NCBI GenBank assembly: GCA_903907855.1
Contig: CAIVPT010000105.1
Span: 1-34,600 of the forward strand
Length of the DNA: 34,600 nt
From: an uncultured Synechococcaceae cyanobacterium
GTDB taxonomy: Bacteria > Cyanobacteriota > Cyanobacteriia > PCC-6307 > Cyanobiaceae
Reading direction: 5' to 3'
The notes under the pieces were generated by a model that made no database searches, had not been told where the DNA came from, and saw nothing but the letters and a program-made list of their open reading frames with translations. Position numbers and translations under genes: made by a program. Positions 4,364-20,259 of this stretch are shown in pieces (position 1 is the stretch's first letter; each line of letters begins with the position of its first letter).

Positions 4364-4843
4364 ATGGTGCGCGTCGTTCTCTTCCAGCCGGAGATCCCTC
4401 CGAACACGGGCAACGTGGCACGCACCTGTGCCGCCACCGAAACCGAGCTGCACCTGATCGAACCCCTGGGGTTCACGATCGACGATCGCCAGCTGCGGCG
4501 GGCCGGGCTTGATTACTGGCCCTGGGTGCCCCTCCATCGCCACAGCGACTTCGCGGCCTTCATGGACCATCGCCGCAGCCGGGGGGGACGCCTGCTTGCC
4601 TTCTCCAGCCAGGCCCAGCTTTCCTACAGCGCCTGGGCCTTCGAGCCGGACGACTGGCTGCTCTTCGGCCGCGAAAGCGATGGCTTGCCGCCGGCGGTGC
4701 TCGAGGCCTGTGAGGAGCGACTGACGATTCCCCTGACACGCCACCGCCATCGGGAAGGGGGAGGCGTTCGCAGCCTCAACCTCTCGGTGGCGGTGGGGGT
4801 TGCCCTGTTTGAGGCCCTGCGCCAGATCCCGCCTGCCCCCTAA
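4364..4843 (+). CDS. trmL: tRNA (cytidine/uridine-34-2'-O)-methyltransferase TrmL
   Basis: A 159-residue SPOUT-class methyltransferase; length is standard for TrmL. It methylates the ribose of the wobble nucleotide in leucine tRNAs using S-adenosylmethionine. The three knot motifs are intact: motif 1 'EIPPNTGNVARTCAATETEL' near residues 10-29, motif 2 'LLFGRESDGLPP' near 98-109, and motif 3 'IPLTRHRHREGGGVRSLNLS', whose Ser-Leu-Asn-Leu-Ser end forms the cofactor loop. The motif-3 segment has a His/Arg-rich stretch where other members have a shorter 'IPM...R' link, a small local insertion. The start ATG directly follows cobU by 3 bases. A perfect hairpin lies 22 bases after the stop. Confidence 0.92.
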   Translation: MVRVVLFQPEIPPNTGNVARTCAATETELHLIEPLGFTIDDRQLRRAGLDYWPWVPLHRHSDFAAFMDHRRSRGGRLLAFSSQAQLSYSAWAFEPDDWLLFGRESDGLPPAVLEACEERLTIPLTRHRHREGGGVRSLNLSVAVGVALFEALRQIPPAP

Positions 4844-6050: not shown

Positions 6051-6124
6051 GGCTCGGTAGCTCAGCTGGTTAGAGCGTGGGATTCATAACCCCAAGGTCG
6101 GGAGTTCAAGTCTCCCCCGAGCCA
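6051..6124 (+). tRNA. tRNA-Met (CAT), elongator type
   Basis: A 74-base cloverleaf. Acceptor arm GGCTCGG (6051-6057) pairs with CCGAGCC (6117-6123), discriminator A at 6124, CCA not encoded. D-arm GCTC/GAGC, anticodon loop TTCATAA with anticodon CAT at 6086-6088, T-arm GGGAG/CTCCC with loop TTCAAGT. The first acceptor pair G-C and D-loop resemble bacterial elongator tRNA-Met, not initiator, which has an unpaired first base in most bacteria. The bottom of the anticodon stem has one A-C mismatch next to the loop (TGGGA against CCCCA). A strong terminator follows at 6166. Confidence 0.93.
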
Positions 6125-6165: not shown

Positions 6166-6191
6166 ACCTCCCGCAATGCGGGAGGTTTTTT
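6166..6191 (+). terminator. Intrinsic terminator of tRNA-Met
   Basis: ACCTCCCGC (6166-6174), 3-base loop AAT, GCGGGAGGT (6178-6186), then a run of T through 6191. This is a classic rho-independent terminator for plus-strand transcription, 41 bases after the tRNA. It has no T-run on the minus strand and so should not end the converging gene at 6222. Confidence 0.92.
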
Positions 6192-10579: not shown

Positions 10580-10611
10580 CGGGGAGCCGGTCCGCGCCGG
10601 TCGGGAAAGGG

Positions 10612-10770
10612 CAAAACCGGCGGGCGTTCTGGCTGGCTCCGGGGGGAGCGTCACAGCTGCGGGACAGCGCCGGACTCGAGGATGGAGGGGACAGGGTCCC
10701 CGGCCTCCTGGTCACCGGACTTTCCCCGTTTCCTCCGTGGGCTGATCCCCCGCGGAACCGATCCTCAGGA
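10612..10770 (-). promoter_or_regulatory. Cobalamin (B12) riboswitch upstream of hupE-cobW
   Basis: Reading the minus strand, the conserved core is visible in order: GGTTCC near 10759; ACGGAGGAAAC then GGGGAAAGTCCGGTG (10727-10713); AGTCCGGCGCTGTCCCGC (10676-10659) followed by AGCTGTGA; and a B12-box-like GCCAGCCAGAACGCCC (10636-10621) leading into GCCGG. These match the class I cobalamin aptamer consensus. Between GGTG and AGTCC there is an extra hairpin, GGGGAC-CCT-GTCCCC (10701-10687). The aptamer ends about 40 bases before the hupE ATG; no T-run follows, so control is more likely at translation than by an intrinsic terminator. Exact limits are approximate. Confidence 0.9.
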
Positions 10771-10825
10771 GTGTATCCGCGCCGGGTCGTCCCCGATCAG
10801 CAAACGCCGAACGCTGTCGGGATTG

Positions 10826-15201: not shown

Positions 15202-15930
15202 TCAGGCCGTGACGCGCTCCGGCAGGCCCTGGGCCGCCTCCGCATCCGCCAGGATCAGCACCTCCCCGCGCGGTTGCACCAGGCGGGCGGGCGTACGCTC
15301 CACCGGCTCCTGGGGATCAAGCAGGCGCTCGAGGGCCTGCCGTTTGCCCGCGCCGCTCACCAGGAAGATCACCTGGCGGGCGGCGCTCAGCACCGGGGCG
15401 GTGAGGGTGATGCGGGGCAGACCCTTGCCTTCCCCAACCACCGCGCTGCGTACGCGCTCCGCCAGGGCAGCGGAGCCGGGGAAGAGGGAGGCCGTATGGC
15501 CGTCATCCCCCAGGCCGAGCAGAACCACGTCGAAGCAGGGAATGGCGCCTCCGCCGAGCTCCAGGAGCACCTGGGCGTAGGCCTCGGCACTGGCCTCCGG
15601 CGTGGCCCTATCGGTGGGCACCGGATGGAAGGCGGCTGATCGGGCCGGACCCTGGGCCAAGAGGGTTTCGCGCAACATGCGGGCGTTGCTGGCGGCATCA
15701 TCAGCGGGTACCCAGCGCTCATCCCCCAGCAGCACATCGACCCGCTCCCAGGGGAGATGATCCGCTCCGAGGCGCAGGTAGGTGGCCCCTGGGGTGGACC
15801 CGCCGGCCAGGGCGATCTGGGCGCGGTCGCGCTCTGCCAGGGCCAGATCAATGCGCGAGGCCACCTGCTCCGCGCTCTGACGGGCCAGATCTTCGGCCGA
15901 TTCGGCGATGCGGAGGTGGTACTGGGTCAT
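15202..15930 (-). CDS. pgl: 6-phosphogluconolactonase
   Basis: A 242-residue NagB-superfamily lactonase (DevB type) that hydrolyses 6-phosphogluconolactone, the second oxidative pentose phosphate step. Motifs: 'IALAGGSTPGATYLRL' phosphate loop near 39-54, 'VDVLLGDERWVPADDAASN' near 66-84 and 'DVVLLGLGDDGHTASLFPGS' near 141-160, with the acid/base His in the last. The start ATG at 15930 overlaps the gnd stop as ATGA, so translation is coupled to gnd, the next enzyme of the pathway. It is the fifth gene of the glpX-hemA-glgC-gnd-pgl run. Confidence 0.96.
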   Translation of the reverse strand: MTQYHLRIAESAEDLARQSAEQVASRIDLALAERDRAQIALAGGSTPGATYLRLGADHLPWERVDVLLGDERWVPADDAASNARMLRETLLAQGPARSAAFHPVPTDRATPEASAEAYAQVLLELGGGAIPCFDVVLLGLGDDGHTASLFPGSAALAERVRSAVVGEGKGLPRITLTAPVLSAARQVIFLVSGAGKRQALERLLDPQEPVERTPARLVQPRGEVLILADAEAAQGLPERVTA

Positions 15931-17345
15931 GGGAGCCACTCGGTGTGGAAGCTGCCGGGCTTGTCGGTGCGCTCATAGGTATGGGAGCCGAAGCAATCGC
16001 GCATCGCCTGCACCAGATTCTGTGGCAGGCGCCCTGTGAAGTAGCTCTGGATGTAGTCGAGGGTGCTGCTCAGGCAGGGTACGGGGATGCCGGCTAGGGC
16101 AGCCCCGGCCACCACGGCGCGCAAGGAAGCCAGCCGTTGGTTGACCTGCTCGAGGAACCAGGGGTCGAGCATCAGGTTGGCGAGATCTTCGTTTGCGTTG
16201 TACGCGTCTTGGATGCGTTGCAGCAGGCGGGCACGGATGATGCAGCCCCCCTTCCAGATGCGGCCGATCTCGGGGAAGTTGAGCTCGTAGTTGTGCAGCT
16301 CGGAGGCCGCCTGCATGAGCGCCATGCCCTGGGCATAGCTGGCGATGCAGGCCAGGATGCAGGCATCACGCAGCGGTGCCATGCCATCGGCGGGGCTGCC
16401 GAGGTCAAACGCAGGGCCCGGGGCCACCTGCAGCAACGGTTCGGCGGCCAGGCGCTCGGGCCGGAGGGAGCTGAGCACCCGGGCGTTGAGGGCGGCGTAG
16501 ACCGTGGGCACAGGCACCCCCATGTTCAGGGCGCTCTCCACGGTCCACAGGCCGGTTCCCTTCTGGCCGGCGGCATCGACGATCTTTTCGACGAGCTTTT
16601 CGCCGCCCTCAGGATCCTCGGTACGGAGGCAGACCTCGGTGATTTCCACCAGGAAGGAATTGAGTTCCTCGGTGTCGTTCCAGAGCTTGAGCACATCAGC
16701 CATGGCGGTGCCGTCCAGGCCCGCTACGCGCTTCATCAGGTCGTAGGCCTCGGCAAGGATCTGCTCGATGCCGTACTCAATGCCGTTGTGAACGGTTTTC
16801 ACGAAATGGCCCGCGCCCCCCGGCCCCACGTAGGTGACGCAGGGGCCGTCAACCACCTTGGCCGACATCGCCTGAAGCAGTGACTCGATGGCCTCGTAGG
16901 CGGAGCGGGTGCCGCCGGGCATCATGCTCGGCCCTTCCAGGGCACCCTTGGCGCCGCCGGACACCCCCATGCCGATGTACCCGAAGCTCTGGCTTTCAAG
17001 CTCCTTCACCCGCCGTTCCGTATCGGTGTAGAGGCTATTGCCGCCATCGATCAGCAGGTCGCCCTGCTCCAGCAGCGGCGCCAGGGTGGCGATCATGTCG
17101 TCCACGGGCTGGCCGGCCTTGACCATCATCAAGATGCGGCGGGGTTTCTCCAGAGCTGCAACGAATTCGGGCAGCGTTGCCACACCGATGATGTCCTTGC
17201 CGGCGCCGAGCCCGGCCAGAAACTTTTCCGTTTTATCGAACGTACGGTTCCAGACAACGCTGGAGAAGCCGTTGCGCTCGGCGTTGAGCACCAGGTTTTC
17301 CCCCATCACGCCGAGGCCGATCAAGCCGAAATGCGCTTTGCTCAT
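15927..17345 (-). CDS. gnd: 6-phosphogluconate dehydrogenase, decarboxylating
   Basis: A complete 472-residue enzyme making ribulose 5-phosphate, CO2 and NADPH; main night-time source of NADPH in cyanobacteria. Rossmann motif 'GLIGLGVMGENLVLNAERNG' at 7-26, 'LIDGGNSLYTDTERR' near 99-113, substrate motif 'GVSGGAKGALEGPSMMPGG' near 129-147, catalytic Lys in 'HFVKTVHNGIEYG' near 184-196 and C-terminal 'RDCFGSHTYERTDKPGSFH' tail with the intersubunit substrate contacts. Its product is the substrate of Rpe, encoded in the neighbouring divergent transcript. It is separated from glgC by 208 bases that hold an elaborate inverted repeat, so it may have its own promoter. Confidence 0.97.
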   Translation of the reverse strand: MSKAHFGLIGLGVMGENLVLNAERNGFSSVVWNRTFDKTEKFLAGLGAGKDIIGVATLPEFVAALEKPRRILMMVKAGQPVDDMIATLAPLLEQGDLLIDGGNSLYTDTERRVKELESQSFGYIGMGVSGGAKGALEGPSMMPGGTRSAYEAIESLLQAMSAKVVDGPCVTYVGPGGAGHFVKTVHNGIEYGIEQILAEAYDLMKRVAGLDGTAMADVLKLWNDTEELNSFLVEITEVCLRTEDPEGGEKLVEKIVDAAGQKGTGLWTVESALNMGVPVPTVYAALNARVLSSLRPERLAAEPLLQVAPGPAFDLGSPADGMAPLRDACILACIASYAQGMALMQAASELHNYELNFPEIGRIWKGGCIIRARLLQRIQDAYNANEDLANLMLDPWFLEQVNQRLASLRAVVAGAALAGIPVPCLSSTLDYIQSYFTGRLPQNLVQAMRDCFGSHTYERTDKPGSFHTEWLP

Positions 17346-17440
17346 AGGAAATCGCGGGGACTGTGGCGTTTGCTCAAGTGTGGCCGCGCCAGGGTCCCGA
17401 ATGGAAGGCGCCAGCGGCGGATGTCAGCAAGTCCGCAATC

Positions 17441-17506
17441 GTTCAGGGGGCAGCCCCCGTGAGGGGCTGCCGACAGGAAAACGTTTCCAGGGATTGGACC
17501 CTGAAC
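17441..17506. other. Nested inverted repeat (three-stem RNA-like structure) between gnd and glgC
   Basis: An outer stem GTTCAGGG (17441-17448) pairs exactly with CCCTGAAC (17499-17506). Immediately inside is a perfect 9-bp hairpin, GGCAGCCCC (17449-17457), loop CGTGA, GGGGCTGCC (17463-17471), and then a smaller hairpin GGAAA-ACG-TTTCC (17476-17488). Together this forms a 66-base three-way junction on either strand. No T-run follows on either strand. It could be a glgC 3' structure, a leader element of gnd (start 95 bases on) or a small RNA. Alternative pairing of CAGGG (17488-17492) with CCCTG (17499-17503) competes with the outer stem. Confidence 0.7.
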
Positions 17507-17553: not shown

Positions 17554-18849
17554 TCAGATCACCGTGCCGTCGGCAATTGTGCCATTTTTGACCACGACGA
17601 CGATACCGTTACGAATATAAAAGTTTAGTTCGGGCCGGTCCGCTTCTTCCACGCGATCTTTGTTCACAATCGTGACATTGTGGCCAATGCGCACATTCTT
17701 GTCGAGGATCGCACGCTTCACAGTTGTTCCCTGGCCCACGCCGATGGGTATGCCGCCGCGCTCGCGCAAAACAGCACGCTCTTCAGCGGATTCGAAGTAG
17801 TCGGCCCCCATGACCAAGGTGTCCTGCAACACCACCTCGTCCTCGACCCGGCTGCGCACTCCGAGCACGCAATGGTGAATGCTGCAGGCCTTGAGGAGGG
17901 AGCCCTCACCGATGATGGATTGGGTTACCTGGCAATCGTTGAGCTTGCTGGGGGGCAGATAGCGGGGACGTGTATAAATCGGAAACTTTTCATCGTAGAA
18001 GGAAAATGGGGGATTGGGCTGTTCCGTGAGTGCAAGATTCGCCTCATAGAAGGCGCCAATCGTACCGATGTCCTCCCAGTAGTCGTTGAAGAGGTAGCTC
18101 TGCAGCGCGTCGCCCCTCTCGAGAGAAGCGGGAATGATTTCCTTGCCAAAATCGGTGGCCTGGGGGTGGGCCGCCAGCAGGTTGAAGAGCGTATCGCGAC
18201 TGAATACGTAGATGCCCATTGACGCGAGGTAGGGCCTGCGTTGGGCCTCTTCCGGGCTGAGGCCCAGGCTGGCGGTATCGACCGCCATCGCATGGAGAGC
18301 GTCCCCTTTTGGCTTCTCGCGGAACTCGCGGATGCGGCCATTGGTATCGGTGCGCATCAGACCGAATCCCTCCGCATCGCTGGCGTTCACCGGCAGGGCG
18401 CCAACGGAGAGCTGGGCACCCGTATCGATGTGGTGCTGCACAAAACGGCTGTAATCCATGCGGTAAAGCTGGTCGCCGGAGAGGATCAGCACATGATCCA
18501 CATCCCATTCCTGGAACAGCCATTGGTACTTACGCACCGCATCTGCGGTGCCCTCGAACCAACTGGGGCTGTCGGGGGTTTGCTGGGCAGCCAGCACCTC
18601 GACGAATCCCTGCCCAAAGCCCGCAGAAAGGTTGTACGTCATCGTCAGATGACGGTTGAGGGAGGCGCTGTTGAACTGGGTCAACACATAGATCTTGTTG
18701 ATCTCGGAGTTGATGCAGTTGCTGATAGGAATATCGATGAGCCTGTACTTGCCCGCCAATGGCACGGCAGGCTTGGCACGGGTCTTGGTGAGTGGGTAGA
18801 GGCGAGTTCCCGCTCCACCGCCGAGAATGATGGCCAGAACACGTTTCAT
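17554..18849 (-). CDS. glgC: Glucose-1-phosphate adenylyltransferase (ADP-glucose pyrophosphorylase)
   Basis: A complete 431-residue enzyme committing carbon to glycogen; allosterically controlled by 3-phosphoglycerate and phosphate in cyanobacteria. N-terminal nucleotidyltransferase motif '[20 protein letters not shown]' at 9-28, '[17 protein letters not shown]' at 34-50, '[13 protein letters not shown]' near 100-112 and '[11 protein letters not shown]' near 123-133; the C-terminal left-handed beta-helix carries '[21 protein letters not shown]' and ends '[17 protein letters not shown]', the canonical end. A ribosome-binding GAGG lies at 18857-18860, seven bases before the ATG. Flanked by hairpins on both sides (18870-18894 and 17441-17506), so mRNA processing or separate transcription from hemA is possible. 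Confidence 0.97.
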
Positions 18850-18869: not shown

Positions 18870-18894
18870 CTCGCTCCGACCGTACCGGAGCGAG
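18870..18894 (-). terminator. Perfect hairpin between hemA and glgC
   Basis: CTCGCTCCG (18870-18878) and CGGAGCGAG (18886-18894) pair over 9 bp around a 7-base loop. It lies 51 bases past the hemA stop and about 21 bases ahead of the glgC start. There is no T-run, so it may be a 3' stabiliser for hemA mRNA, a weak terminator or a glgC leader element. Confidence 0.45.
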
Positions 18895-18945: not shown

Positions 18946-20259
18946 TCAGCGGCCCCCCGACGGGTCGTCCTGCAGCTCAAACAACTCCTGCAGCACTTTC
19001 ATCGCTTGATGGCGCTGGTTACGCGGCTGCGGAGCCCGCAGCCGCGTAACCGGGGTGTGCAGAACCTTGTTGATGATGCCCTTGCTGAGGGCCTCCACCA
19101 CCTTGCGCTCCCGGGCGGAGAGATCGGGGCCCATGCGACTGAGGGCTTTCTGTAGCTCCTGCTCGCGAATGTCCTCCAGCTGGGTGCGCAGACGATTGAC
19201 CAGAGGCACGGCCTCCAGACCGTCCCACCAGTCGAGGAAGAGCTGGGCCTCCTCCCGCAGCAACGCTTCGGCCTCGGCGGCCATCTCTCGGCGTGCCTCC
19301 TGGTTGCGGGCCACCACCTCCTGCAAATCGTCCACATCAAAGCTCTCGACGCCCTCGAGTTCGGCGGCATCCGCCGCAATGTTGCGGGGCACGCCGATGT
19401 CGATGAGCATCAGGCTGGAGCGGCGGTTGAGTGTCTCAAGCCGCGATCGGCTGATGATCGGCTCCTCAGCCGCCGTGCTCGTGAACACGAGCGAGCAGGT
19501 ACTCAGGCAGTGGTCGAGGTCATGGATGGGGCGGCATTGCACGGGGAGCTGGGGAAAGTCGGCCGCCAGCTGCTCGGCGCGGGCCACGGTGCGGTTGAGC
19601 AACACCACGCCACGGCACCCCTTGGCCTGCAGGTGTTGCAACAGCAGCCGTGCCATGCGACCAGCACCCACTACCGCCACCTGCTCCTGGTCGAGCGGCA
19701 GAAGCTCATCGACGCCCCGCGCCTGCCCCACCTTCAACTGGGCCAGTTCCACGGCGGCGGAGCTGATCGAGACCGCGCCGGTGCCGAGGTTGGTTTCCGT
19801 GCGCACCCGCTTACCGGTGCTGACGGCCTGATTGAGCAGACGGTTCAGAATCGGGCCAATGGAGCGGTACTCCTGGCCGAGCCGCACCATCTTCTTAACC
19901 TGGGAGAGGATCTGCCCCTCCCCCAGCACCAGGCTGTCGAGGCCGGCCGACACCCGCAACAGGTGATCGATGGCAGCTTCGTGGTGGTAAGCAAAGAGAT
20001 GGGGGCTCAGCTCCTCAAGCGGCAGGCCCGAAACCTGGCTGAGGAAGGCGCCAATGGCTGAGATCCCCTCCTCTGGATGGCGCAATAGGGCATAAATCTC
20101 CAGACGGTTGCAGGTGCTGAGGATCGAGGCCTCCAGCACCTGGTCGTCAGCCCGCAGCCTCTGCAGCGAGGCCTCCATGGTGGGCTCTGGAATGCTCAGC
20201 CGCTCCCGGATCTCCACCGGAGCCGTGCGGTGACTGAGGCCGATGACGGCGATGTGCAT
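18946..20259 (-). CDS. hemA: Glutamyl-tRNA reductase
   Basis: A complete 437-residue GluTR that reduces glutamyl-tRNA to glutamate-1-semialdehyde, the first committed step toward heme, chlorophyll, bilins and B12. The N-terminus 'MHIAVIGLSHRTAPVEIRER' is diagnostic; catalytic Cys50 lies in 'ILSTCNRLEIYA'; the NADPH domain has 'VAVVGAGRMARLL' and 'VVLLNRTVARAEQLA'; the dimerisation helices end in 'GIINKVLHTPVTRLR'. Sitting between glpX and glgC, it links tetrapyrrole entry to central carbon genes on one strand. Regulation by heme through the N-terminal region is family knowledge and is not visible here. Confidence 0.97.
   Translation of the reverse strand: MHIAVIGLSHRTAPVEIRERLSIPEPTMEASLQRLRADDQVLEASILSTCNRLEIYALLRHPEEGISAIGAFLSQVSGLPLEELSPHLFAYHHEAAIDHLLRVSAGLDSLVLGEGQILSQVKKMVRLGQEYRSIGPILNRLLNQAVSTGKRVRTETNLGTGAVSISSAAVELAQLKVGQARGVDELLPLDQEQVAVVGAGRMARLLLQHLQAKGCRGVVLLNRTVARAEQLAADFPQLPVQCRPIHDLDHCLSTCSLVFTSTAAEEPIISRSRLETLNRRSSLMLIDIGVPRNIAADAAELEGVESFDVDDLQEVVARNQEARREMAAEAEALLREEAQLFLDWWDGLEAVPLVNRLRTQLEDIREQELQKALSRMGPDLSARERKVVEALSKGIINKVLHTPVTRLRAPQPRNQRHQAMKVLQELFELQDDPSGGR

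Follow-up and report, generated by a model that had tools for sequence, protein, structure and literature searches.

The window analysed here, a stretch of 34,600 nucleotides, belongs to a freshwater Cyanobium-type genome of 3.0 Mb in 320 contigs, whose closest named relatives by glgC, among those found, are Cyanobium and freshwater Synechococcus strains. On its minus strand the gene order is hemA-glgC-gnd-pgl, and the spacer of 208 nt between glgC and gnd contains a domain of inverted repeats that extends from 47 to 113 nt past the glgC stop codon (Table 1). The site thus lies between a gene of glycogen synthesis and a gene of sugar oxidation. A preliminary description of this DNA had named both genes, correctly, and both are carried on the minus strand; the exact inverted repeats of 8, 9 and 5 bp that it listed are likewise present in the sequence.

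Table 1. Positions, within the window, of the stem-loop domain, the adjoining promoter motifs and the flanking genes.
Feature	Position	Strand	Remarks
glgC (ADP-glucose pyrophosphorylase)	17554-18849	-	Stop codon 47 nt before the element
Stem-loop domain, 66 nt	17441-17506	-	glgC 3' half of the glgC-gnd spacer
Outer stem, arm GTTCAGGG	17441-17448	+	Exact 8 bp with 17499-17506; pair probability 0.99
Outer stem, other arm CCCTGAAC	17499-17506	+	Read from the sequence
9-bp hairpin GGCAGCCCC-CGTGA-GGGGCTGCC	17449-17471	+	Read from the sequence; exact arms 17449-17457 and 17463-17471, 5-nt loop; sole copy in the genome
5-bp hairpin GGAAA-ACG-TTTCC	17476-17488	+	Exact arms 17476-17480 and 17484-17488; marginal, probability 0.25-0.42; lost in relative G033
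TTGCTGACA box, upstream element of probable gnd promoter	17422-17430	-	Conserved in spacers
CACACT hexamer, probable -10 of gnd promoter	17377-17382	-	CACACT in 70 of 93 spacers
gnd (6-phosphogluconate dehydrogenase)	15927-17345	-	ATG at 17345

Structure of the element

The 9-bp stem stacks directly on the 8-bp outer stem, and both are predicted on either strand with pair probabilities averaging about 0.98 or more. The minimum free energy of the 66-nt segment is -35.7 kcal/mol on the plus strand and -35.1 kcal/mol on the minus strand, with folding z values of -4.5 and -4.7, respectively, which none of 200 shuffled sequences equalled (none of 1000 for the minus strand), in agreement with the earlier judgement that the arrangement is unlikely to arise by chance. 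The three-stem shape first proposed was upheld for these two stems and only in part for the third, as the 5-bp hairpin forms with low probability (Table 1) because a 4-bp TCCA/TGGA hairpin competes with it, and the three-stem shape is therefore one of two near-equal forms. Beyond the outer stem, the minus-strand tail reads GATTGCGG. A search for an intrinsic terminator or U-tract at the element found none on either strand, as the preliminary description had also reported; a GC-rich stem-loop after a gene is present, the U-tract behind the stem is not, and identity with a canonical terminator was rejected on this ground. With a stem-loop past the stop codon and no U-tract following, the element does agree with the structured U-tract-less class of 3' ends. 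No promoter-like site for the element itself was found on either strand, no phage relatives were found, and Rfam returned nothing for the spacer at the gathering threshold, with only chance scores below. There is no second copy in the genome and none in a 325-kb sample, and an origin as a repeat element of the REP or MITE type was consequently rejected. Elsewhere in the window, the minus strand carries a cobalamin riboswitch at 10602-10777 (Rfam RF00174, 41.5 bits), and a canonical terminator of a 9-bp stem followed by TTTTT lies on the plus strand at 6166-6186, near a tRNA gene (6051-6124), which suggests that U-tract terminators are used by the source genome.

Frequency of hairpins in the genome

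The background for perfect hairpins was taken from codon-shuffled coding sequence of the same genome, and the intergenic rate from a 285-kb sample. In about 256 kb of coding sequence, 13 perfect stems of at least 9 bp were observed versus about 13.7 expected from codon shuffles (about 0.05 per kb), while the 29 kb of intergenic DNA in the sample held nine, such that perfect 9-bp hairpins are about six times commoner between genes than within genes in this genome. Behind six of these nine intergenic stems, the glgC-gnd element among them, a T-run is not clear. The chance of a stem of at least 9 bp in the glgC-gnd spacer is about 1% by base composition and about 6% at the intergenic rate. In fold stability the element is unusual within the window without being unique, about 15 places holding 66-nt stretches with a z of -4 or below. 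Very stable 66-nt stretches (z -5.4 to -6.4) also occur at 4731-4807, over the overlap of two plus-strand open reading frames.

Distribution among relatives

The glgC-gnd junction was taken from 121 loci of Cyanobium and its family, yielding 93 distinct spacers. Gene order was kept in all loci extracted, and the part of the spacer that bears the element could be aligned to that of one relative only, genome G033, whose glgC is 91% identical to that of the window in DNA and 98% in protein. From 91 of the 93 spacers the element is absent, and on these alignments it is specific to its lineage, comprising one species and an altered form in the nearest relative. The conservation of structure among close relatives on which the preliminary description had made its proposal depend is thus largely missing, and its suggestion of a regulatory RNA, taken as a conserved one, is not supported, given this distribution, the partial retention in G033 and the lack of an Rfam match.

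In G033, about five of the eight outer pairs are kept in a gapped alignment (fewer by MAFFT), seven of the nine pairs of the inner stem are kept with one double change and one G-U pair, and the 5-bp hairpin is lost. Per-helix covariation between the window and G033 (MAFFT), the one comparison that an alignable relative allowed, was no better than shuffles, the observed values being reached by 146-258 of 500, with the little power that two sequences afford. The G033 segment, which differs from its counterpart in the window by 24-27 substitutions plus indels, nonetheless reaches a folding energy of -30.1 kcal/mol (z -2.6), and of copies of the window's segment carrying an equal number of random substitutions 98-99% fold less strongly; this fold sits inside a kept CAGGGU/ACCCUG closing stem, and the three-stem topology is open to the segment at -27.7. 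Coming from one genome pair, this is a weak hint of selection on foldedness. A covariance model of the two sequences, searched over 68 sources, recovered only both founders.

Across the spacers, the glgC-proximal zone may be almost missing or exceed 500 nt in length, and outside the window and G033 the part that bears the element is absent, unstructured or occupied by an unrelated hairpin; a few genomes have a canonical U-tract terminator there. The 70 foldable segments have a median z of -0.66, with 16 below -2 and 8 below -3, counts that are not independent as the genomes are related. Relatives L108 and L130 have, in the slot of the element, a canonical-looking terminator made of a stem and a U-tract; the strong stems found in L106, L012, L015 and L020 lack a U-tract. 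Near siblings often have broken versions of such stems (L012/L054, L020/L013), and the on/off pattern is also seen in L015/L014. Many relatives have no hairpin at all in the 3' untranslated region, some gnd boxes starting a few bases past the glgC stop codon. In these spacers the slot thus tends to be filled by a terminator-like or hairpin structure, of which each version is young and dispensable.

A conserved, probable promoter signature upstream of gnd

Conservation of the gnd-proximal zone extends across the family, marine Synechococcus WH7803 and a Prochlorococcus included. Upstream of the gnd ATG, at about 35 nt (30-47 nt), every spacer has a match to the hexamer CANANT, an invariance that is partly built in, letters 1, 2, 4 and 6 having been fixed by the search pattern. 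The TTGCTGACA box occurs at seven of nine letters or better in 67 of the 93 spacers versus 3% in shuffled sequence, separated from the hexamer by 37-40, 48-50 or 59 bp, distance classes about one helical turn apart; the few matches at other distances (47, 55, 27) each come as a second one beside a match at 37 or 39. Where the spacing is 48-50, the genome often has a second TGAC(G/A) at 27-28 bp. When the bipartite pattern was scanned over 42 genomes of the genus, about one match per genome was found, nearly always at gnd, with one control match overall; a non-gnd match common to G030 and G035, beside an open reading frame judged by its translation to resemble a phycobilisome linker, is taken as chance. 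Box and hexamer are best read as a gnd promoter with an activator site, from which transcription of gnd would probably begin at about 17370, on the gnd side of the element. The element itself stands between the glgC stop codon and this promoter motif, about 10 nt upstream of the box. Identity of the box with the RpaB site HLR1 was rejected, the consensus, (G/T)TTACA(T/A)(T/A) repeated (PMC11633204), matching TTGCTGACA poorly by eye. This family-wide signature is a more useful result than the hairpin, as the box provides a concrete candidate site for a regulator controlling gnd in picocyanobacteria.

Discussion

Taken together, the data allow a model in which the element is a lineage-specific stem-loop without a U-tract in the glgC 3' untranslated region, at the end of the mRNA, a reading on which our confidence is about evenly poised. 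The model proposes that the glgC transcript, copied from the minus strand, would fold into the coaxial 8-bp/9-bp stem about 50-115 nt past its stop codon, where the stem most likely would block 3'-5' exonucleases and so define or stabilise the end of the mRNA, and possibly also assist a U-tract-independent pause or release of RNA polymerase. Lying just upstream of the gnd promoter, the stem would partly separate the glgC transcript from gnd, which would start from its own conserved promoter. The place of the element in the glgC 3' untranslated region had been offered in the preliminary description as one possibility, and its position does fit a structured 3' end. That the double stem truly defines the glgC 3' end and separates gnd from it, and so would be a working example of a termination or 3'-end mechanism as yet undescribed in cyanobacteria, is a stronger proposition and a rather unlikely one.

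There is a known kind to which such an element may belong, as cyanobacteria are without Rho, canonical terminators end only 22% of transcription units in S. elongatus, and of the defined U-tract-less ends in that organism 46% are structured, although most are not (PMC13289151). The element shares with the structured U-tract-less ends of S. elongatus PCC 7942 a GC-rich hairpin after a gene in a phylum lacking Rho; however, those are mapped RNA ends, whereas the present element is known from sequence and from another organism (PMC13289151). It resembles the REP-type 3'-stabilising hairpins of E. coli in being a U-tract-less hairpin past a stop codon that would shield mRNA from exonucleases (PMC13289151), but REP elements form repeated families and the glgC-gnd element is unique in its genome. 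With the canonical intrinsic terminator, such as L108 and L130 carry in the same slot, it has in common a GC-rich stem-loop after a gene, and it differs in lacking a U-tract on either strand and in possessing two stacked stems. Hairpin clusters acting as terminators (PMC8355165) offer a further likeness in several short hairpins close together past a stop codon, termination here being only putative. How most cyanobacterial transcripts end is an open question (PMC13289151), for which stable stems without a U-tract are useful test cases.

The strongest rival to the 3'-end reading, and a serious one, is that the element has no function and is a mutational by-product in an unconstrained spacer, where template switching (quasipalindrome correction) or drift would have turned imperfect inverted repeats of GC-rich DNA into perfect ones whose good folding is fortuitous; we regard this as somewhat unlikely, though a substantial possibility. 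The 3'-end reading draws on a fold beyond chance, on the position past the stop codon, and on two observations that also tell against a neutral origin, namely that G033 keeps its fold strength beyond random mutation (the 1-2% tail) and that hairpins are commoner between genes than within them, other lineages having terminators or hairpins at the corresponding place. Against it stand the missing U-tract and the lack of covariation support; the latter equally favours the absence of function, as do the want of conservation beyond two genomes, the on/off pattern among siblings (L012/L054, L015/L014) and the presence of some clustered differences from G033 within the stem arms, as where G033 reads CCG and the window AAC, which completes the outer stem. 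An alignable outgroup that would give the direction of this change is absent. A mutational route is further favoured by a case 1.5 kb away inside hemA, where the minus strand holds at 19017-19051 a perfect inverted repeat of 16 bp around a loop of 3 nt; G033 and other relatives lack it, and codon shuffles give an expectation of zero. This palindrome looks like a template-switch mutation and lies where an RNA function is unexpected; perfect palindromes therefore do arise in the lineage, and the case suggests that mutation alone can perfect them. However, template switching as a general process in coding DNA was rejected, perfect stems of 8-12 bp there equalling chance and only the 16-bp case standing out. 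Given the losses among siblings and the many relatives without a hairpin, any function of the element must therefore be dispensable.

A lineage-restricted regulatory small RNA, either a fragment of the glgC 3' untranslated region or a separate transcript, acting in trans or binding a protein, is improbable. The stability of the closed multi-branch structure on either strand and the uniqueness of the sequence would suit such an RNA, but Rfam holds no match, the exposed sequence is unconserved, an own promoter-like site was not found, and the element is present in only two of 93 spacers. Still less probable is a role at the level of DNA, in which a protein would bind the inverted repeats, including the near-palindrome GGAAAACGTTTCC, upstream of the gnd promoter. 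In its favour are the distance of about 10 bp between the end of the element and the conserved gnd box and the near-palindromic form of CAGGAAAACGTTTCCAG, yet the palindrome is lost in G033 while box and hexamer are kept, and many relatives lack all of that DNA. A gnd leader element, which the preliminary description had also put forward and which is the least credible of these readings, could draw on the location between the genes and on glgC read-through transcripts that would carry the element, but the conserved promoter motif (Table 1) lies between the element and gnd and places the probable gnd start downstream of it, and a transcript from that promoter would therefore not contain it.

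The two flanking genes were originally described as used at opposite times of day, and in S. elongatus this is documented, glgC being a dawn gene (PMC5785211) and gnd an RpaA-dependent dusk gene (PMC5400509). However, their locus tags in that organism (Synpcc7942_0603 and _0039) are distant; the genes are therefore not adjacent there, and the timing says nothing specific about the hairpin. In Prochlorococcus MED4 the corresponding tags are consecutive (PMM0769 and PMM0770; PMC7900632). On the other side of glgC, the hemA-glgC spacer holds another perfect 9-bp hairpin without a U-tract at 18870-18894, which contains TACGGT, a hexamer found upstream of glgC in most relatives seen and possibly the glgC -10.
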